DNA of 45,750 nt from an uncultured Chlorobiaceae bacterium (GTDB lineage Bacteria; Bacteroidota; Chlorobiia; Chlorobiales; Chlorobiaceae), in NCBI GenBank assembly GCA_903843305.1, contig CAIMPI010000012.1:1-45750 (forward strand). Reading direction: 5' to 3'. Below the pieces are notes generated by a model. It was not told the DNA's origin. It saw only the letters and a program-made list of their open reading frames with translations, and searched no databases. Both the position numbers and the translations under genes were made by a program. Shown piece by piece: positions 17,055 through 28,846 of the stretch. Every line of letters starts with the position of its first letter. Position 1 is the first letter of the stretch.

Positions 17055-18386
17055 ATGCTTAATGTTCTTATTGTTGATGATGAAATAAATATTCGCAAGA
17101 CTCTTATGGTTTTTATGGAGTCTCGCGGGCATTTTGTGAAATCGGTGAGCAATTCCAGGGATGCATTGGCAGAGGCTGAGCGACAGGTTTTTGATCTTGC
17201 CTTTATTGACTTGCGTTTGGGAACAGAGAGTGGGCTGGACCTGGTGCAGTTGATGCTGCATACCTATCCATGGATCAAGGTGGTGGTGATTACTGCTTAT
17301 GCTTCGATTGAGAGCGCTGTCGAAGCTATCAAGCGGGGTGCATCTGACTATATTGCCAAGCCGTTTACTCCAAATCAACTTGATCTTGTTACCAGGCGTA
17401 TTGCTGAAGTGAGTGAAATGGAGCGGCGAATTGAGACTTTACAGGAAGATTTGAGCCGCATTCATCCGGAAATTACTTTTACAACTCGTTATCCCTCTAT
17501 GCAACGGGTTGTTGAGTTGGCTCGTCAGGTTGCCACGTCTGAAGCTGTTGTTCTTTTATGTGGTCCGAGCGGTACCGGCAAAACGGTGCTTGCGCGAACT
17601 CTTCATAGCTGGAGCAGCAGAGCTGACAAACCATTCGGGGTTATCTCTTGTCCTTCATTAAGCCATGAACTGCTTGAAAGTGAGCTTTTTGGGCATGTTA
17701 AGGGCTCATTTACCGGAGCTGTCAGGGATAATCCGGGACGAGTCTTTTCCTGTGAAGGGGGCTCTTTGTTTCTTGATGAAATCGGAGACCTGCCCCTTTC
17801 AATTCAGCCAAAACTTCTTCGCTTTATTCAGGATCGGGAATATGAAAGGATTGGCGATCATCAAACACGCAAAGCAAATGTCCGGATCATTGCAGCGACC
17901 AATAAAGAGCTTGACAAAGAGGTAAGAGAGGGGCGTTTTCGTGAAGACCTTTTTTATCGGTTGAATGTTATCCAGATTGATTTGCCACCTCTTGCCGCCC
18001 GGCCTGATGATGTTGAGCAACTTGCTGTGAGTATGCTGAACTTTTTTGCGGCGCAGAATCACAAAAAACTTGAAGGATTTACGGATACGGCATTGCAAGC
18101 CCTCAGAACCTACTCGTGGCCGGGCAATATTCGCGAATTGCGCAATGTTATTGAACGCGCTGTTATTTTGAGCAAAACAGATGGTATTGGTCTGGAACTT
18201 CTTCCGGAAAGCATTGTGGCCAAAATACATCCTGCTCGTCTTGGTGATCCATTAACCCTTGATGTGATTGAGGAAAATCATATCCGTCTTATTCTTGCTT
18301 CAACAAAATCTCTTCAAGAGGCAGCAGACCTTCTTGGTATTGATCAGGCTACTCTCTGGAGAAAACGGAAGCAGTACGAAATATAA
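17055..18386 (+). CDS. NtrC-family sigma-54-dependent response regulator (AlgB-like)
   Basis: Phosphorylation-controlled activator of sigma-54 RNA polymerase. The 443-residue protein has a receiver domain (about 1-120; acidic pair in LIVDDE, phosphoacceptor D52 in FIDLRLG, Lys in AKPF), an AAA+ domain (about 145-375; Walker A GPSGTGKT at 170-177, Walker B LFLDEIG, and GSFTGA at 217-222, an A-to-S variant of the sigma-54-contacting GAFTGA loop), and a Fis-type helix-turn-helix at the C-terminus ([21 protein letters not shown]). I start it at ATG 17055; the frame extends upstream into the tRNA terminator, which cannot be coding. The central domain ([18 protein letters not shown]) recalls AlgB of Pseudomonas. 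The permease gene follows 118 bases on and the KinB-like kinase after it, so they are likely partners in potassium control. Confidence 0.92.
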
Positions 18387-18399
18387 GCTATGAAGCCAC

Positions 18400-18448
18400 C
18401 TTGCAAAATTCAATACACTTTCTCTGGTGATCTTGTGTTTTGCAAGAT
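18400..18448 (+). promoter_or_regulatory. Paired CTTG-N7-CAAG dyads upstream of the permease gene
   Basis: Two inverted repeats lie in the gap between the regulator and permease genes. The first is CTTG-CAAAATT-CAAT (18400-18414, one arm base off), the second ATCTTG-TGTTTTG-CAAGAT (18430-18448, six-base perfect arms). Their centres, 18407 and 18439, are 32 bp apart, about three helix turns. The same pair with the same spacing occurs before the kinase gene. No T-run follows, so they are not terminators. I infer binding sites for the adjacent NtrC-type regulator. Confidence 0.55.
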
Positions 18449-18475
18449 GTCGTTTAGTGTGCTTTCCTTATGTTC

Positions 18476-18491
18476 TGGTACACCATTAATT
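18476..18491 (+). promoter_or_regulatory. Degenerate sigma-54-like element before the permease gene
   Basis: The -24 half TGGTACAC (18476-18483) is identical to that of the promoter before the kinase gene, but the -12 half reads TAAT where TTGC is expected. It starts 29 bases before the permease ATG. It may be a weak or decayed promoter or chance. Confidence 0.22.
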
Positions 18492-18504
18492 TATCCGATT
18501 TTTT

Positions 18505-20499
18505 ATGGCAGTCAATAACTCTTTAAGACGGTTTAAAACATTTTTTCTAGGCAGTGCACGGGATTTTCGGGATCATAGAATTTTCCATCAACTGGCGTTG
18601 AGCGCATTTCTTGCATGGGTTGGACTTGGTTCCGACGGTCTTTCCTCCTCTTGTTATGGCCCTCCCGAAGCATTCAAGGCGCTTCAGGGGCATCCGACAC
18701 TTGGGATTTTTGTCGCTATCGGCACGGGAATCACCATCTTTATTATTGCATCAAGTTATTCACATATTATTGAGCTTTTCCCTCACGGAGGAGGTGGCTA
18801 TCTGGTTGCGAGTAAACTTCTTTCTCCTGAAATGGGGGTGATTTCCGGCAGTGCGCTTCTGATCGATTATGTGTTGACCATTACCATCTCAATTGCCAGC
18901 GGAGCGGATGCTATTTTCAGCTTTTTGCCTGTCGGGTTAATCTCCTATAAATTGTGGTTTGCTGTATTTGGAGTCATGGTGCTGTTGTTACTGAACCTTC
19001 GCGGGATCAAAGAGGCGGTGATGCCCCTTGTTCCTGTTTTTCTCCTTTTTGTTGTTACTCACCTTGTTGTCATTGTCTATGCCGTGATCTCCCATCTGGC
19101 CAATTTTGGTACGGTCTATCATGAAACGGGGCGTGAGCTTGCCAGTTCATTTCATACTCTCGGAATTTTTGGTGTACTTTTTCTTGTGTTGAAAGCCTAC
19201 AGCCTCGGCGCTGGTACCTTTACGGGAATTGAAGCAGTCAGTAACGGTTTGCCTGTTCTGCGTGATCCGAAAGTGTTGACAGCAAAGAAAACCATGAAGT
19301 ATATGGCGATCTCTCTTTCCGTTACTGTTATGGGGCTCATGCTGGCATACATTCTTTTTGATGTACGGGATATGCCGGGCAAAACTCTCAACGCGATTCT
19401 TTTTGAGAGTATTACTGCATCCTGGACTGGCTGGTATGGTGTTAGTTTTGTCTGGGTTACCCTCTTTTCGGAAGCAGTACTGCTTTTTATTGCTGCACAG
19501 ACAGGCTTTCTTGATGGGCCGAGGGTTCTTGCAAATATGGCACTTGACAAATGGCTGCCAGCGCGTTTTGCCATGCTGAGTGACCGACTTGTTACGGAAA
19601 AAGGCATTCTTGTCATGGGTATTGCCTCACTTGCCATGATGCTTGCATCAAACGGATCCGTTGATTTTCTCATTGTTCTTTACAGCATTAACGTTTTCAT
19701 AACGTTCTCGCTTTCACAGCTTGGAATGGTTCGCCATTGGTGGGAAAAAAGGGAGTCTGAAAAGCTTTGGGCAAGGAAGCTTGTAATTAATGGCGTTGGA
19801 CTGATGCTGACGACTTTTATCCTGATCTCTGTACTGGTACTCAAGTTTCATGAAGGCGGATGGGTGACTATTCTCATCACAGGAGTGCTGGTTATGGGTG
19901 CTTTTTTTATCAAGGGACACTACAACAAAACATATCAGACACTGAAGCGGCTTGATGTTATTGTGGAGGCTGCTGTGCTGACAGGTTCGGATGTGCATGA
20001 CAAGGAGAGTGATCAGGTTACTCCGATTCCGGTTTTTGACCAAAAGGCGAAGACGGCCGCTATCTTAGTGAATGGCTTTAACGGTCTTGGCCTGCATACA
20101 CTGTTCAGTGTTTTCCGCCTTTTCGGAAATAGTTACAAAAATTATGTTTTTGTTGAAATAGGCTCGATTGATGCTGGAAACTTCAAGGGAGCTGATGAAA
20201 TAGATAATCTTGGCAACTTTGTTCGTAATGAAACATCAAAGTATGTTGACTACATGACGGAGCATGGGTACTATGCTGAAGCATATTTCTCTCTTGGAAC
20301 TGATGTCGTTGATGAGGTTAACAAGCTCGTTCCGGCCATCAGGGAAAAATTTCCGGACATTGTCTTTTTTGGAGGGCAGCTCGTGTTCACCAAAGAGTCT
20401 ATGATGGACCGATGGCTGCATAATTATACGGTTTTTGCAGTGCAGCGTAATCTTTACGTGCACGGTATTCCTTTTGTGATTTTGCCTGTCAAGGTTTAA
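18505..20499 (+). CDS. APC-superfamily permease, KUP/KimA-like, probable potassium transporter
   Basis: A 664-residue membrane protein with about 12 predicted transmembrane segments between residues 25 and 475 and a C-terminal cytoplasmic domain of about 190 residues. The N-terminal motif LGSDGLSSSCYGPPEAF and GAGTFTGIEAVSNGLP belong to the amino acid/polyamine/organocation superfamily. It lacks the GDIGTSPLY motif of E. coli Kup, and looks closer to the KimA type of potassium importer, which also has a C-terminal soluble domain. Potassium as substrate is inferred from that resemblance and from its place between a regulator-kinase pair and kdpFABC; amino acid transport is the alternative. Start ATG 18505 has only a weak ribosome site. 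The promoter region carries the paired dyads described separately. Confidence 0.8.
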   Translation: MAVNNSLRRFKTFFLGSARDFRDHRIFHQLALSAFLAWVGLGSDGLSSSCYGPPEAFKALQGHPTLGIFVAIGTGITIFIIASSYSHIIELFPHGGGGYLVASKLLSPEMGVISGSALLIDYVLTITISIASGADAIFSFLPVGLISYKLWFAVFGVMVLLLLNLRGIKEAVMPLVPVFLLFVVTHLVVIVYAVISHLANFGTVYHETGRELASSFHTLGIFGVLFLVLKAYSLGAGTFTGIEAVSNGLPVLRDPKVLTAKKTMKYMAISLSVTVMGLMLAYILFDVRDMPGKTLNAILFESITASWTGWYGVSFVWVTLFSEAVLLFIAAQTGFLDGPRVLANMALDKWLPARFAMLSDRLVTEKGILVMGIASLAMMLASNGSVDFLIVLYSINVFITFSLSQLGMVRHWWEKRESEKLWARKLVINGVGLMLTTFILISVLVLKFHEGGWVTILITGVLVMGAFFIKGHYNKTYQTLKRLDVIVEAAVLTGSDVHDKESDQVTPIPVFDQKAKTAAILVNGFNGLGLHTLFSVFRLFGNSYKNYVFVEIGSIDAGNFKGADEIDNLGNFVRNETSKYVDYMTEHGYYAEAYFSLGTDVVDEVNKLVPAIREKFPDIVFFGGQLVFTKESMMDRWLHNYTVFAVQRNLYVHGIPFVILPVKV

Positions 20500-20534
20500 T
20501 ACATTCTTTTCAATCTGATTTCCCCACCTCTGGC

Positions 20535-20583
20535 AGCTTGAAAAACGCAAGCTCTCAGTTTGTCTGCTCTTGAATATTTCAAA
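20535..20583 (+). promoter_or_regulatory. Paired CTTG-N7-CAAG dyads upstream of the histidine kinase gene
   Basis: Inverted repeats AGCTTG-AAAAACG-CAAGCT (20535-20553, six-base perfect arms) and CTTG-AATATTT-CAAA (20569-20583, one arm base off). Centres at 20544 and 20576 are 32 bp apart, exactly the spacing seen before the permease gene. The nearer dyad is centred 63 bases upstream of the GG of the -24 element, a workable position for a sigma-54 enhancer. Function is inferred. Confidence 0.58.
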
Positions 20584-20637: not shown

Positions 20638-20653
20638 TGGTACACTTTTTGCT
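20638..20653 (+). promoter_or_regulatory. Sigma-54 (-24/-12) promoter of the kinase-kdp operon
   Basis: TGGTACACTTTTTGCT matches the sigma-54 consensus TGGYACRNNNNTTGCW at every defined position, with GG and GC ten bases apart. Transcription would start near 20664, leaving a 25-base leader with a strong AGGAGG ribosome site (20677-20682) before the kinase ATG. No other convincing promoter was found before kdpF, so it probably drives the kinase, the small peptide gene and kdpFABC-D. Confidence 0.75.
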
Positions 20654-20688: not shown

Positions 20689-22509
20689 ATGATTGGTATA
20701 CGACAAAAGCTTGTTCTGGGATTTGGTGGTCTGCTCCTCATTGTTGTTGCACTAGGGGTGCTGACTATCCGTCACATTGATGCCCTTGGCGGAGCTATTG
20801 ATGTTATTCTCAGGCAAAACTATCGCAGTGTGGTTGCCTGCCAGAAAATGACTGAGTCACTTGAGCGCATAGACAGTGGAGCCTTGTTTACCTTCGCAGG
20901 ACATTACGATGAAGGAATGAGCACTATTCGGGAGAATGAACAAAACTTTCGTCATGCACTGCGCGTGGAGCTTGGCAATATCACCCTTCCCGGTGAACAT
21001 CAGAAAGCCATGCAGATCAACACTCTTTTTGTCCGATACTACATTATTATTAAACAGGTTACAAATCCATCGACTTCTTTGCCTGAAAGGCAGCAGCGAT
21101 ATTTTTCTGACCTTCTTCCGCTTTTTCAGCAAATAAAGCAACTCTCGGCCCAAGTTCTGGAGATGAACCAGGCAAACATGCAGGCGGCAAACGATAATGC
21201 GCGCCAGATGGCTGCATCAGCGCACAATACCATGCTGGTGGCTATTTTTGCCAGTGCAATTATTGCAATATTGTTCAGCTTTCGCTCCCATCGCTGGATT
21301 CTCATGCCGATCAAAAAGCTGACCGCGTCAGTCGAAGAGATTCGGAATGGCAATCTTGATCTTGTCCTTGATACCACGTCAATGGATGAAATCGGACAAC
21401 TTTCACAATCATTTAACGACATGGCAGCAACTCTCCGTAAAATGCGCAAAAGCGATCTGGACATGCTTTATCGCAGTCGGAGGGTAACGCAGGAGGTGTT
21501 CAAGGTTTTACCCTTGCCGATAGCGGTGCTGGATGCGAATGGACAAGTTGAAGTATCCACTGACACTGCGGAACGCTATTTTGGGTTGAAAGCGGGTGTT
21601 TATGTTCAGGATATCGGTCATGACTGGCTGAAGGGAGTGTGGCAGAAAGCTGTTCGACAGGGTTACGCAACTGAGTCGGAAGGTGGTAATGACTACATTC
21701 AGCATTTTGACGGGAGGAACGAGTACTTTTTTCAACCTGTGGTAGTACCTGTTCCTTTAAGTGCTGAGCGTGAGGAGTTTGCCGGAACAGCGCTGATTTT
21801 CAGGGATGTGACACAGCTTCACGAACAGCTTGAGCTCAAGCGCAGTGTTATTGCTACGGTATCTCATCAGTTGCGAACCCCTCTTACCTCGCTGCGAATG
21901 TCTGTTCATCTTCTGCTTGAAGAACGAATAGGGCATCTCAACGAACAGCAGGCAGATCTGTTGCTGGCTGCACGTGAAGAGAGTGAGCGGCTTGCGCGTA
22001 TGCTTGATGATCTTCTGGAGCTCAACCGGATAGAATCGGGCAAAGCCCCCCTGAACATTGTTCCGGTTTCTCCTTTTCATCTCAGTTGCGAAGGCATTGA
22101 GCCGTTCCTGATTCATGCCAGTGATCGGGGGGTAACCATTGTGAATACTATTCATGAAGGGTTGTCTGATGTGATAGCAGATCCGGAAAGCATCAAGCAT
22201 GTTTTTGCGAACCTTCTTTCGAATGCATTGCGGTTTACCTCGCCGGGCGGTAAAGTAACCATCAGCGCTTCTGAAGAGCATGACAAGATCAGATTTTCCG
22301 TTCAAGACACAGGGAATGGTATTGCATCTGAACATCTTGAGCACCTTTTCGAAAGGTTTTATCGAGTTCCGGGCCAAAAAGCAACGAGTGGTATCGGCCT
22401 CGGGCTTTCGATTGTAAAGGAGATTATTGAAGCACAGGGAGGAAGTGTTGGTGCTGAAAATGTCACAGGCAAGGGGTCAGTATTTTACTTCACTCTACCC
22501 ATAAGGTAA
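20689..22509 (+). CDS. KinB-like membrane sensor histidine kinase
   Basis: Inner-membrane sensor that should autophosphorylate and pass phosphate to the NtrC-type regulator two genes upstream. The 606 residues show: transmembrane helix 1 (about 6-26), a periplasmic sensor of about 150 residues, transmembrane helix 2 (about 180-199), a HAMP linker (about 200-252), a PAS domain (about 265-375), the HisKA dimer domain with H393 in SHQLRTPLTSL, and the ATPase domain with N box HVFANLLSNALRF, G1 box DTGNGIASEHL, F box LFERFYR and G2 box GIGLGLSIVKE. Domain order and the regulator type resemble KinB/AlgB. It is the first gene after the sigma-54 promoter and is followed by kdp genes, so it likely replaces the missing KdpD kinase half. 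The signal sensed is unknown. Confidence 0.9.
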   Translation: MIGIRQKLVLGFGGLLLIVVALGVLTIRHIDALGGAIDVILRQNYRSVVACQKMTESLERIDSGALFTFAGHYDEGMSTIRENEQNFRHALRVELGNITLPGEHQKAMQINTLFVRYYIIIKQVTNPSTSLPERQQRYFSDLLPLFQQIKQLSAQVLEMNQANMQAANDNARQMAASAHNTMLVAIFASAIIAILFSFRSHRWILMPIKKLTASVEEIRNGNLDLVLDTTSMDEIGQLSQSFNDMAATLRKMRKSDLDMLYRSRRVTQEVFKVLPLPIAVLDANGQVEVSTDTAERYFGLKAGVYVQDIGHDWLKGVWQKAVRQGYATESEGGNDYIQHFDGRNEYFFQPVVVPVPLSAEREEFAGTALIFRDVTQLHEQLELKRSVIATVSHQLRTPLTSLRMSVHLLLEERIGHLNEQQADLLLAAREESERLARMLDDLLELNRIESGKAPLNIVPVSPFHLSCEGIEPFLIHASDRGVTIVNTIHEGLSDVIADPESIKHVFANLLSNALRFTSPGGKVTISASEEHDKIRFSVQDTGNGIASEHLEHLFERFYRVPGQKATSGIGLGLSIVKEIIEAQGGSVGAENVTGKGSVFYFTLPIR

Positions 22510-22567: not shown

Positions 22568-22666
22568 ATGAATGTGTACCATCAACTGTATCTCGGAATA
22601 CTCATTTTTCTGATTCTTACCGGAGTGGCTGGATTGATTGGCTTCATTATTCATATCGGAGGTTAA
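22568..22666 (+). CDS. 32-residue single-span membrane peptide upstream of kdpF
   Basis: A tiny frame of 32 codons, MNVYHQLYLG... ending ...FIIHIGG, with one hydrophobic helix (about residues 8-29). It has a strong ribosome site (AAGGAGG, 22551-22557) ten bases before its ATG, and its stop codon is separated by one base from the kdpF start; its own last codons supply the GGAGG ribosome site for kdpF. This placement argues for real translation. I do not recognise the family. It could be an extra KdpF-like stabilising subunit of the Kdp complex, or a peptide that couples translation to kdpF. Confidence 0.65.
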   Translation: MNVYHQLYLGILIFLILTGVAGLIGFIIHIGG

Positions 22667-22667
22667 C

Positions 22668-22748
22668 ATGGATTTCGTTGTCTTGCTCACATTTTTTGGT
22701 TGCATGGTTTATTTGGTCTATGCCATTGTCAATCCTGAGAAATTTTAA
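22668..22748 (+). CDS. kdpF: Potassium-transporting ATPase subunit KdpF
   Basis: A 26-residue single-span membrane peptide, MDFVVLLTFFGCMVYLVYAI followed by VNPEKF. The YLVYA(I/L)xxPEKF ending is typical of KdpF, which stabilises the KdpABC complex. A GGAGG ribosome site lies six bases before the ATG, inside the preceding small gene. kdpA begins 12 bases downstream. Confidence 0.9.
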   Translation: MDFVVLLTFFGCMVYLVYAIVNPEKF

Positions 22749-22760
22749 ACCTATCGCATT

Positions 22761-24431
22761 ATGTCATTACTATTTGTATTGGTACTGATTGTTCCTGCCT
22801 TTTTGTCGTGGCCTCTTGGACTTGCGATGACACTCTTGATAGATCCTTGTCAGAATTCAACTTATGGTCGCTGGACTTCGGGGATCTTCAGCAAAACAGG
22901 TGGGCTTGCTGCCGTTGAAGAACAGGACTGGAAGAGCTATCTGTTTTCCATGCTGATATTCAATATTGCCATGTTTGCTTTCGTAATGACTGTACTTGCA
23001 CTGCAGCAGTGGCTGCCGCTCAATCCCGACGGAAAGGGGCCGCTTGAGGCAAGCCTTATTTTTAATACTGCGGCATCCTTTGTCACAAACACCAATCTCC
23101 AGCACTACTCTGGAGAGGCATCCATGAGCTATTTTTCCCAGCTTTTCGGTTTGATGTGGCTGCAGTTTGTTTCTGCTGCGACAGGGATTGCCTGCCTTGT
23201 GGCTCTTGCCAGAGCGCTGGGCGGGAAAAAAACGGTTGGCAATTTTTACAGCGACATGATGCGGACAACTTTTTTTATTCTGCTGCCACTTGCACTCTTT
23301 GTTGCCTTGCTTCTTGTTGCCGGAGGAGTTCCAATGACCATGGATGGTGCTGCCGTAGCCCATACTCTTGAACATGCAACGCAAACCATAGCCAGGGGCC
23401 CTGTTGCTGCCATGGTGGCAATTAAACAGCTCGGAACCAACGGTGGTGGATGGTTCGGGCCAAATTCAGCTCATCCTTTCGAAAACCCTTCTTTCTTTAC
23501 CAATATTCTGGAGTGCTCCAGTATCATCCTGATCCCAATGGCAACGGTGTGGATGTTTGGACGCATAACAGGGCGTATGCGCGATGCTGCTGTAATATTT
23601 TCAGTCATGATGGCACTGCTTGTTTTTAAAGCAGGCGCGGCAGTCTGGCTTGAAGGGGCTCCTGCAACCGCACTCTCCGGCCTACCAGTCGAGGTGGTTT
23701 CGAATCTTGAAGGCAAGGAGCTTCGCTTTGGTTCCGGTGCAGGCGCTCTCTGGGCTGCGGTGACGACAGCTACCAGTAATGGTTCGGTCAACTGCATGCA
23801 CGATAGCCTTAATCCGCTGACCGGACTTGTTCCTCTTGCCGGCATGTGGATGAATATCGTTTTTGGTGGCGTTGGCGTTGGTCTTATCAATATGTTCATT
23901 TTTATCATTGTCGGTGTATTTATCTGCGGCATGATGGTTGGCCGTACACCGGAATATTTTGGCCGAAAGGTTGAAACCCGCGAAATGACGCTTGCCCTGC
24001 TTGCCCTCTTGGTTCATCCGGCGCTGATTCTTGGAGGAACCGCACTTTTTGCGGCCACGACGGCAGGGGCAGGAACTGTGCTGAACAGCGGAGCCCATGG
24101 GTTTACAGAAATTCTCTATGAATTTTCCTCTTCTGCAGCCAATAACGGTTCAGGTTTCGAGGGGTTGGGTGATAACACCGTTCCCTGGAATATTGCTACC
24201 GGTATTGTGATGCTGCTGGCGCGCTATTTACCTATCATTCTGCCTCTTGCTATTGCCGGTTCGCTGGCGGCAAAGAAGCCTGTTCCAGTAACAGCAGGAA
24301 CTCTACGCACCGACACCTTACTTTTTGGGCTTATTATTCTCGGGAGCGTGGTTTTAATCGGGGCACTTCTTTTTCTACCAGTAGCTGTCCTCGGTCCTGT
24401 TGCTGATCATTTTACTGCAATCGTTCATTGA
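22761..24431 (+). CDS. kdpA: Potassium-transporting ATPase subunit KdpA
   Basis: Potassium-binding and channel-like subunit of the high-affinity Kdp ATPase, in the inner membrane. The 556 residues hold ten predicted helices and all four selectivity-filter repeats: TNTNLQHYSGE, GTNGGGWFGPNSAHPFENP, TATSNGSVNCMHDSLNPL and SSAANNGSGFEGL. Length matches the family. It lies 12 bases after kdpF and 34 bases before kdpB. No missing key residue was seen. Confidence 0.98.
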   Translation: MSLLFVLVLIVPAFLSWPLGLAMTLLIDPCQNSTYGRWTSGIFSKTGGLAAVEEQDWKSYLFSMLIFNIAMFAFVMTVLALQQWLPLNPDGKGPLEASLIFNTAASFVTNTNLQHYSGEASMSYFSQLFGLMWLQFVSAATGIACLVALARALGGKKTVGNFYSDMMRTTFFILLPLALFVALLLVAGGVPMTMDGAAVAHTLEHATQTIARGPVAAMVAIKQLGTNGGGWFGPNSAHPFENPSFFTNILECSSIILIPMATVWMFGRITGRMRDAAVIFSVMMALLVFKAGAAVWLEGAPATALSGLPVEVVSNLEGKELRFGSGAGALWAAVTTATSNGSVNCMHDSLNPLTGLVPLAGMWMNIVFGGVGVGLINMFIFIIVGVFICGMMVGRTPEYFGRKVETREMTLALLALLVHPALILGGTALFAATTAGAGTVLNSGAHGFTEILYEFSSSAANNGSGFEGLGDNTVPWNIATGIVMLLARYLPIILPLAIAGSLAAKKPVPVTAGTLRTDTLLFGLIILGSVVLIGALLFLPVAVLGPVADHFTAIVH

Positions 24432-24465: not shown

Positions 24466-26550
<2,085 letters not shown>

Positions 26551-26567: not shown

Positions 26568-27155
26568 ATGAAAACAACGCTATCATTTGGGGATCTCACG
26601 CGACAATTTGCGGTCTCATTACGTATTCTTCTCGTTACTGTGTTGATCTGCAGCGGGTTGTATACCGTAATCGTACTTCTGGCTGCTCAGATTGTCCCCT
26701 ATTCTGCATCGGGTTCTCTTATCCGTTCTGAAAACGGACAGGTTGTCGGCAGTGAACTTATTGGCCAGCAGTTTAGCCGACCTGAAAATTTCTGGTCCCG
26801 TCCATCGGCAGTATCATGGAACGCTGCCGGAGCAGGTGGAAGTAATCTTTCACCTGCATCTCTGGCAATGCGCCAGAAGAGCGAGAAACTGCTTGGTTCC
26901 TTTGCACTGAAAAAAGGAGAAACAGTTCCTGCAGATCTTGTTACAGCTTCAGGCAGCGGTCTTGACCCGCATATTTCGATTGCGGCTGCACGATTTCAGG
27001 CATCAAGAGTTGCCCATGCAAGGGGTCTTTCTGTCGATCAGGTGATGAGACTGATCTATGAGCCGACAAGTGGAAACGTCACCATTCCCCTATTGAACGA
27101 GTCGCTTGTGAATGTTCTGCAACTCAACAGATCGCTTGACCGATTGAAGAAATAA
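26568..27155 (+). CDS. kdpC: Potassium-transporting ATPase subunit KdpC
   Basis: Single-span accessory subunit that helps ATP binding and complex stability. The 195 residues have one N-terminal membrane helix (about 18-43) and the family motifs GSELIGQQFSRPENFWSRPSA, SNLSPAS, and ASGSGLDPHISIAAARFQASRVA. Length is typical. It is followed 35 bases later by the KdpD-like gene. Confidence 0.97.
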   Translation: MKTTLSFGDLTRQFAVSLRILLVTVLICSGLYTVIVLLAAQIVPYSASGSLIRSENGQVVGSELIGQQFSRPENFWSRPSAVSWNAAGAGGSNLSPASLAMRQKSEKLLGSFALKKGETVPADLVTASGSGLDPHISIAAARFQASRVAHARGLSVDQVMRLIYEPTSGNVTIPLLNESLVNVLQLNRSLDRLKK

Positions 27156-27190: not shown

Positions 27191-28846
27191 ATGGATAGCA
27201 ACAACAGAGCCGACAGTTTTTTGCGTCTCATCCAGCGGTCGCAACGGGGTAAACTCAAGATTTATGTCGGCTACTGCGCTGGTGTGGGGAAAACCTGGCA
27301 GATGCTGCAGGAAGCAAGACGCCTTAAAGACAATGGGATTGATGTTGTTGTTGGCCTTGTAGAAACCCATAAAAGGAAGGAGACTGAAGCCCTGCTGTCA
27401 GGACTGGAGATTATACCCCGGAAAAGCCTGTTATATCGAGGTATAGAAATTACCGAAATGGACATTGATGCCGTTCTCCAACGTCATCCCGCAGTTGTGC
27501 TGGTTGATGAACTTGCACATACCAATGTTCCGGGAAGCAGAAATTCAAGGCGCTATGAAGATATTGAGGAAATTCTTGCCGCCGGTATTCATGTGATTTC
27601 AACCCTGAACATTCAGCATATCGAAAGCCTTTATGAAACGGTAGAACATGCCACCGGAGTGAAGGTCAAGGAACGGGTGCCTGACCGTATTCTGGTGCTG
27701 GCTGATCAGCTTGTCAATGTTGATATTACAACCGATGATCTGCGTCAGCGCCTCTCCGAAGGAAAAGTCTATGTTCCCGGCCGTTTGGAAACGGCCCTGT
27801 CCAACTTTTTTCAATCTGAAAATCTTGAGCAGCTCAGGGAGCTGACCCTGCGAGAGCTTGCTGCACAGCTTGATTCGAAGCGGCGCAACCACTTTCATGA
27901 CGGCTCGGTTTCCAATCCCGATCAGCTTATGGTTTGCCTCAGTTCAAAAACCAGGAACTGTGAAACCATTCTGCGCTACGCATCGCGTATAGCTGGAAGA
28001 CTGAACAGAGACTGGTATGCGGTCTATGTGCAGACACTATCCGACAGTCCAACCAATATTGATGCAAAAGTACAACGTTTGCTTTCCAATACGCTTGCTC
28101 TTGCCCAGCAACTTGGTGCTACCGTATTTACCTATAAAGGTGACGATGTGGTTAAAACCATTCTGCAGTTTGCCAGGGAATATCGTGTTGGACACATTAT
28201 CATCGGCAATTCAGGAAGAAAACTTTCGCTATGGCAACGTCTTCTGGGTCGGCAGACCATTATTGAACGTTTGATCAGTGAATGTCGGGGTATCAACGTG
28301 ATTGTCCTCGATACCAGGGAAGAGGGTGCTGAACAAAAGACAAAACTCTTTTCCGGCATTAAAGGAAGCCTTACGGCTGTAAGCCGGTCGCAATATGGAT
28401 GGAAAGAACCGATCAGGAGCGCAAGGGTTGTGCTCTGGGAGAGTGTTCTTGAAAAGGAGGAGGCGTTTCGTCAGTTGCTGCACGAATGCTGTCTTTCCAA
28501 TCCGGACATTGACGAAGTGAGTGCGTTCAACAACCTCCTTGAACGGGAGCTGCAGGGAGGAACCTTTGTCGGCGCGGATATCGCCATTCCTCATGCCAGA
28601 CTCGACAATCTCAACAAACCGGTTCTTGCTATAGGTGTCAACCGGGTTGGGATTTATGATAATACATCGAGCAAAACAGCGCGGATCATGTTTCTGATGC
28701 TCTCTCCGCAATCCGATCCTGACAGTCACATTCGGCTGCTTGGTGCTATCAGCAAGATGGCCTCGGATAGCCATTGGCGTAATATGATGCTTGACTCCCG
28801 CAGCAAAAAGGAGATTATCCGGATTATAAGGAACTGGCTGCGTTAG
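27191..28846 (+). CDS. Kinase-less KdpD-type sensor fused to a PTS EIIA domain
   Basis: A 551-residue cytoplasmic protein with no membrane helices. Residues about 20-225 are the KdpD N-terminal domain: Walker A-like GYCAGVGKT at 27-35, then VDELAHTNVPGSRNSRRYEDIEE and ISTLNIQHIESL. Residues about 238-375 are a universal-stress-type domain as in KdpD (CLSSKTRN ... GHIIIGNSGR). Instead of the four membrane helices and kinase of full KdpD (about 890 residues), residues about 408-551 form a PTS EIIA domain of the fructose/nitrogen type, with the phosphorylatable histidine H468 in GADIAIPHARLD. It cannot autophosphorylate by itself. It is the last gene of the kdp operon; I infer that it modulates the KinB-like kinase or the Kdp pump in response to potassium and PTS phosphorylation state. 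Confidence 0.9.
   Translation: MDSNNRADSFLRLIQRSQRGKLKIYVGYCAGVGKTWQMLQEARRLKDNGIDVVVGLVETHKRKETEALLSGLEIIPRKSLLYRGIEITEMDIDAVLQRHPAVVLVDELAHTNVPGSRNSRRYEDIEEILAAGIHVISTLNIQHIESLYETVEHATGVKVKERVPDRILVLADQLVNVDITTDDLRQRLSEGKVYVPGRLETALSNFFQSENLEQLRELTLRELAAQLDSKRRNHFHDGSVSNPDQLMVCLSSKTRNCETILRYASRIAGRLNRDWYAVYVQTLSDSPTNIDAKVQRLLSNTLALAQQLGATVFTYKGDDVVKTILQFAREYRVGHIIIGNSGRKLSLWQRLLGRQTIIERLISECRGINVIVLDTREEGAEQKTKLFSGIKGSLTAVSRSQYGWKEPIRSARVVLWESVLEKEEAFRQLLHECCLSNPDIDEVSAFNNLLERELQGGTFVGADIAIPHARLDNLNKPVLAIGVNRVGIYDNTSSKTARIMFLMLSPQSDPDSHIRLLGAISKMASDSHWRNMMLDSRSKKEIIRIIRNWLR

Follow-up and report, generated by a model that had tools for sequence, protein, structure and literature searches.

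Each of two pairs of short palindromes in a potassium-uptake locus of an uncultured Chlorobiaceae bacterium is very probably a two-dimer, enhancer-type operator for REG, a sigma-54-dependent response regulator predicted to drive the kinase-kdpFABC genes. One pair precedes a KimA-type permease gene and the other a sensor kinase gene (KIN) followed by kdpFABC. The two palindromes of each pair are 32 bp apart, a spacing that recurs across the family together with REG, and a sigma-54 type promoter stands at a fixed distance from the kinase-side pair. The locus lies in the 45,750-nucleotide stretch of DNA that was analysed as a whole (the window); its features are collected in Table 1.

REG has the domain order of NtrC-family activators, with Pfam matches to Response_reg, Sigma54_activat (8.6e-64) and HTH_8 (8.5e-07) and a match of 2.8e-86 to the NtrC-family relative 4l4u in the PDB. 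A GSFTGA loop, which is of the GAFTGA type, and LFLDEIGD can be read in its translation, and both the Walker A and Walker B motifs were found. The same genome encodes rpoN (PF04552 at G000:C29, 7.5e-56), and six of its regulators carry a near-complete sigma-54 activator domain. On its match to the solved potassium transporter KimA (1e-64 over residues 32-485), the permease is assigned as a KimA-type K+ transporter homologue. A 31-codon hydrophobic ORF with a good ribosome site, MNVYHQLYLGILIFLILTGVAGLIGFIIHIGG, lies at 22570-22665 of the window, 5' of the kdpF-like ORF, and possibly encodes a second small Kdp-associated membrane peptide. The short KdpD is found directly 3' of the kinase in some relatives (L035, L039, L041), and some of the genomes among these give no kdpA match (G084, G059), which suggests a role for this protein beside the permease.

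Table 1. Operators, promoters and genes of the potassium-uptake locus (positions in the window).
Feature	Position	Strand	Remarks
REG, NtrC-family response regulator	17055..18386	+	REC - AAA+ sigma-54 interaction - Fis-type HTH_8; predicted dyad binder
Outer permease-side dyad CTTGCAAAATTCAAT	18400-18414		centre 18407; 1 mismatch
Operator A1 TTGCAAAATTCAA	18401..18413	.	outer dyad of permease pair
Inner permease-side dyad CTTGTGTTTTGCAAG	18432-18446		centre 18439; arms ATCTTG/CAAGAT
Operator A2 TTGTGTTTTGCAA	18433..18445	.	inner dyad of permease pair, A1 + 32 bp
TATGTT block	18469..18474	+	candidate -10 of permease promoter, 23 bases past A2
KimA-type APC-family potassium permease homologue	18505..20499	+	PDB 6s3k; AA_permease_2
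Outer kinase-side dyad CTTGAAAAACGCAAG	20537-20551		centre 20544; arms AGCTTG/CAAGCT
Operator B1 TTGAAAAACGCAA	20538..20550	.	outer dyad of kinase pair
Inner kinase-side dyad CTTGAATATTTCAAA	20569-20583		centre 20576; 1 mismatch
Operator B2 TTGAATATTTCAA	20570..20582	.	inner dyad of kinase pair, B1 + 32 bp
Sigma-54 type -24/-12 promoter TGGTACACTTTTTGCT	20638..20653	+	strict match, position conserved in relatives
KIN, HAMP-HisKA-HATPase_c sensor kinase	20689..22509	+	presumed REG partner; domain search
kdpF-like small ORF MDFVVLLTFFGCMVYLVYAIVNPEKF	22668..22748	+	identity inferred from resemblance
kdpA	22761-24431	+	NCBIfam kdpA 3.4e-180
kdpB	24466-26550	+	NCBIfam kdpB 2.3e-298
kdpC	26568-27155	+	Pfam KdpC 1.2e-55
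Short KdpD	27191..28846	+	KdpD sensor domain + PTS_EIIA_2, without kinase domain

The four dyads had been picked out by a sequence-only reading of the window, and all are present in the sequence with the arms that it gave; its 32-bp distance between the centres holds in both pairs. Operator A1 lies 14 bases past the REG stop codon. Single CTTG-N7-CAAG dyads with at most one mismatch number 35 in the window, no significant excess over the 27.6 +/- 4.3 of shuffles. TTG-N7-CAA repeated at 32 bp occurs only twice in the 2,590,455-base genome, both times in this locus and in intergenic DNA, and the reversed control pattern gave no match in the same genome. The computed chance expectation is about 0.15 per genome, and the reversed control over 86 genomes likewise gave about 0.15 per genome; frequent chance occurrence, which would have undone the proposal, is thus not what the genome contains. 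One-mismatch 32-bp pairs elsewhere in the genome, counted as a lead to further regulon members, came to 8, close to the 4 of the control.

Refinement gave a 13-bp palindrome, TTGCA-WWW-TGCAA, as the operator core, with A or T at the centre of every training site; its outer TTG/CAA was fixed by the search pattern. The 32-bp pair was found in 54 of the 86 Chlorobiaceae genomes. Counting only strong pairs, those that match the operator well, 42 of the 50 family genomes with REG have one, as against 3 of the 36 that lack REG (p=7e-13, Fisher test, uncorrected for relatedness); in at least one of these three (G043) the REG gene is cut off by a contig end beside the pair (L095). The eight REG genomes that have no strong exact pair include carriers of 31-bp versions (G045, G076, G010, G017), a 42-bp version (G058), one-mismatch versions (G006, G011) and one of a paralogue type (G071). 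Upstream of the permease and kinase genes, relatives have 41 distinct pairs at 32 bp and at most four at any other spacing; shuffled regions gave a mean of 0.01 pairs. Two loci (L030, L031) have permease-side dyads 42 bp apart, about one full helix turn more, as expected for proteins that meet on one face of the DNA. Within the window's genus, every position of the permease operator is conserved at 0.96-1.00 in 23 distinct upstream sequences. Among cultured Chlorobium relatives, C. ferrooxidans (L037) has the permease-side pair. The dyads had been proposed as operators of this very regulator, and their retention in relatives that have REG and absence from most of those that do not, together with their rarity in the genome, supports that assignment. 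The family-wide conservation is, however, partly shared ancestry, and the second pair has been lost at some kinase genes that follow a permease (L012, L013 and others). A search of 12 genomes from other families of the order gave no close REG match (E <= 1e-120), and in the neighbourhood of distant permease relatives from Omnitrophota, Ignavibacteria and Bacteroidetes (L060, L062, L064, L065) both the regulator and the pair are missing.

When genes move, the operator stays with its regulon. Where the locus has no permease, the pair lies between REG and KIN (L082, L087, L096, L100). In G043, G045 and G076 (L129, L133, L141) it is found after KIN and ahead of kdpFABC, together with a sigma-54-like site, and permease copies that have no detected REG neighbour also have no pair (L007, L010, L014, L027). 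Several arrangements are more elaborate. The kinase upstream region of L096 (G046:C128) carries two operator pairs, that is, four dyads before one sigma-54 promoter, of which the promoter-proximal pair is degenerate. In L174 (G037:C3) and L175 (G038:C10), an insertion has come between REG and the kinase; operator pairs persist in two or more places, and between them lies a kdpB-like fragment (53-59% identity). L129 (at about 1070-1300), L133, L141, L188 and L191 share a small conserved ORF, about 75-80 codons long and of the M-S-Q-E-x-V-I-L-E-W ... F-G-P-x-E-E-D type. It lies directly 3' of the operator and sigma-54 site and 5' of kdpF or the permease, and was not seen in the window.

Many relatives have a second regulator, REG2, 63-66% identical to REG and placed before its own kinase-kdp operon. 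Its sites, TTGAATTTTGCAC and those like GTGCAATTTACAC, have GTG-N7-CAC half-sites 32 bp apart (31 in one), and in all 12 REG2 loci with a pair the sigma-54 GG is 61-62 bp from the inner dyad. The recognition helix, where readable, has DKATLW or KATLW in REG2 versus DQATLW in REG. The change in helix goes with the change in half-site as a correlation only, for which a single duplication may be the basis.

The sigma-54 type promoter before the kinase, which the sequence-only reading had missed, is the sole strict -24/-12 match of the window; the whole genome has 17. It stands between the operator and the kinase/kdp genes. From its GG to the centre of B2 is 63 bp; in 16 kinase-upstream regions of relatives the inner dyad is 62-63 bp away, and in their alignment the sigma-54 site is nearly gap-free relative to the dyads. 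Transcription from sigma-54 promoters starts about 12 bases past the GC. With such a start, the kinase-side dyads would be centred at about -88 and -120. Since REG is a sigma-54 activator, the most natural reading of the kinase/kdp pair is as an enhancer of this promoter.

Control of the permease may be arranged otherwise. Neither at 62-63 nor at 84-90 bp from its pair was a sigma-54 site found, in the window or in near relatives of its genus. Across 23 distinct sequences of the genus, a TATGTT block comes 23 bases past the inner dyad, with one column at 0.91. If this block serves as the -10 element, the centre of the inner dyad would fall near -42. REG might then act here not as a sigma-54 enhancer but from about 42 bp upstream of a sigma-70-like start, by direct class-II activation or by repression through occlusion, a tentative reading that is somewhat less probable than its opposite. 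The distance from A2 to TATGTT is kept in L030 and L031 even though their dyads are 10 bp further apart, and a matching block is retained in the permease copy L007, which has no intact dyads. Nor was a -35 box or a sigma-54 site found there. On the other hand, NtrC-type activators with an intact GAFTGA-like loop normally use sigma-54, and TATGTT agrees with the -10 consensus at only 4 of 6 positions. In the sister genus, moreover, sigma-54-like sites come after the same permease operator, mostly at 84-90 bp or about two turns further; their -12 part is often TTGA and not TTGC. A weak sigma-54 site may have been missed in the window's genus. It is rather unlikely, though conceivable, that a single 32-bp operator serves two architectures. 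At kinase-kdp it would be a sigma-54 enhancer; at the permease of the window's genus it would lie at about -42/-74 of a sigma-70-like promoter and act on it directly, this promoter having replaced the sigma-54 one that the sister genus retains.

Two further readings would do without REG altogether, and both are unlikely. The permease-side pair, coming just past the REG stop, could form an RNA hairpin (a terminator, an attenuator or an mRNA end) in place of a DNA operator. There is a stable stem in the window (-22.2 kcal/mol, z -3.9), and the two dyads form a 17-bp, 82% inverted repeat (18397-18413/18433-18449) that had gone unnoticed in the sequence-only reading. That reading had argued that the dyads are not terminators because they have no T-runs, and no terminator-like site was called at them. 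An Rfam search gave no match; of six relatives tested, two showed no excess stability and two folded each dyad separately. Pairing across the dyads reached 65%, barely more than the 63% of shuffled partners (15 of 500 shuffles reached 65%), so that the dyads hardly covary, and the kinase-side pair folds no better than shuffles and sits before a promoter. The loss of the fold in several relatives, with the missing T-run and the lack of an Rfam match, largely refutes the hairpin, which we regard as scarcely credible. Hardly better placed, and still very improbable, is the notion that the dyads are sites of another factor, for instance of the CRP/FNR type (TTGAT-N4-ATCAA), that controls the same genes by coincidence. 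The TTG...CAA ends are FNR-like, but TTG-N7-CAA is an odd palindrome of 13 bp, and sites of the FNR/CRP type are even and one base longer. The occurrence of the pair also tracks the REG gene and shifts with REG2, and a tandem 32-bp layout with a -24/-12 site is typical of NtrC-type regulators.

The pairs are better taken as operators of REG, for which the following scheme can be proposed. Two 13-bp palindromes three helix turns apart would place two REG dimers on one face of the DNA, and the paired dimers would seed the active AAA+ ring. Phosphorylated REG would then open the sigma-54 promoter at 20638-20653 and switch on kinase-kdpFABC, probably along with the short KdpD. With the same operator ahead of it, the KimA-type permease gene would belong to the same, presumably low-potassium, regulon. 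In this scheme REG would bind the pairs, KIN would phosphorylate it, and low K+ would be the signal.

By analogy, the locus would work like two known systems. The NtrC sites of the E. coli glnA enhancer lie at -108/-140, 32 bp apart. Standing in tandem some 90-140 bp ahead of a sigma-54 promoter, NtrC sites there activate by looping (PMC7408454); the tandem layout upstream of a sigma-54 promoter is shared with the present locus, whereas the operator sequence differs and glnA serves nitrogen, not potassium uptake. Sigma-54 control of kdp is itself already known: in Desulfovibrio vulgaris the NtrC-type, sigma-54-dependent response regulator DVU3334 governs its own kdpFABC operon. The work of KdpD is shared there by two proteins, one with the K+ sensor domain and the other a separate kinase, and the regulator and its motif are conserved in a few relatives (Rajeev et al. 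2011, PMC3333781; Kazakov et al. 2015, PMC4641369). The likeness is one of arrangement, a sigma-54 response regulator at its own kdpFABC with divided KdpD function. D. vulgaris belongs to another phylum, and the locus described here differs in having a KimA-type permease in the regulon and a strict 32-bp operator pair. The loop is GSFTGA in REG and GAFTGA in DVU3334; the GSFTGA form is also on record for D. vulgaris sigma-54 regulators. The KdpD/KdpE system resembles this one in its two-component control of kdpFABC. E. coli KdpE is a winged-helix regulator that binds direct repeats (PMC3264566); in the Chlorobiaceae locus the regulator is NtrC-type and not OmpR-type, and KdpD has no histidine kinase domain.

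In the literature searched, no paper joins KimA, Kdp and Chlorobi, and there is no description of the operator, of a family-wide regulon with a KimA-type permease or of the paralogue's shift in specificity. The analysis gives an uncharacterised regulator a sharp, family-wide operator and assigns it to potassium uptake. It joins a KimA-type transporter and Kdp in one predicted sigma-54 regulon of green sulfur bacteria. The TTG and GTG half-sites of REG and REG2, at equal spacing and with a recognition-helix difference (IDQATLW versus IDKATLW) that goes with the half-site shift, may offer a natural case of operator specificity diverging after duplication.
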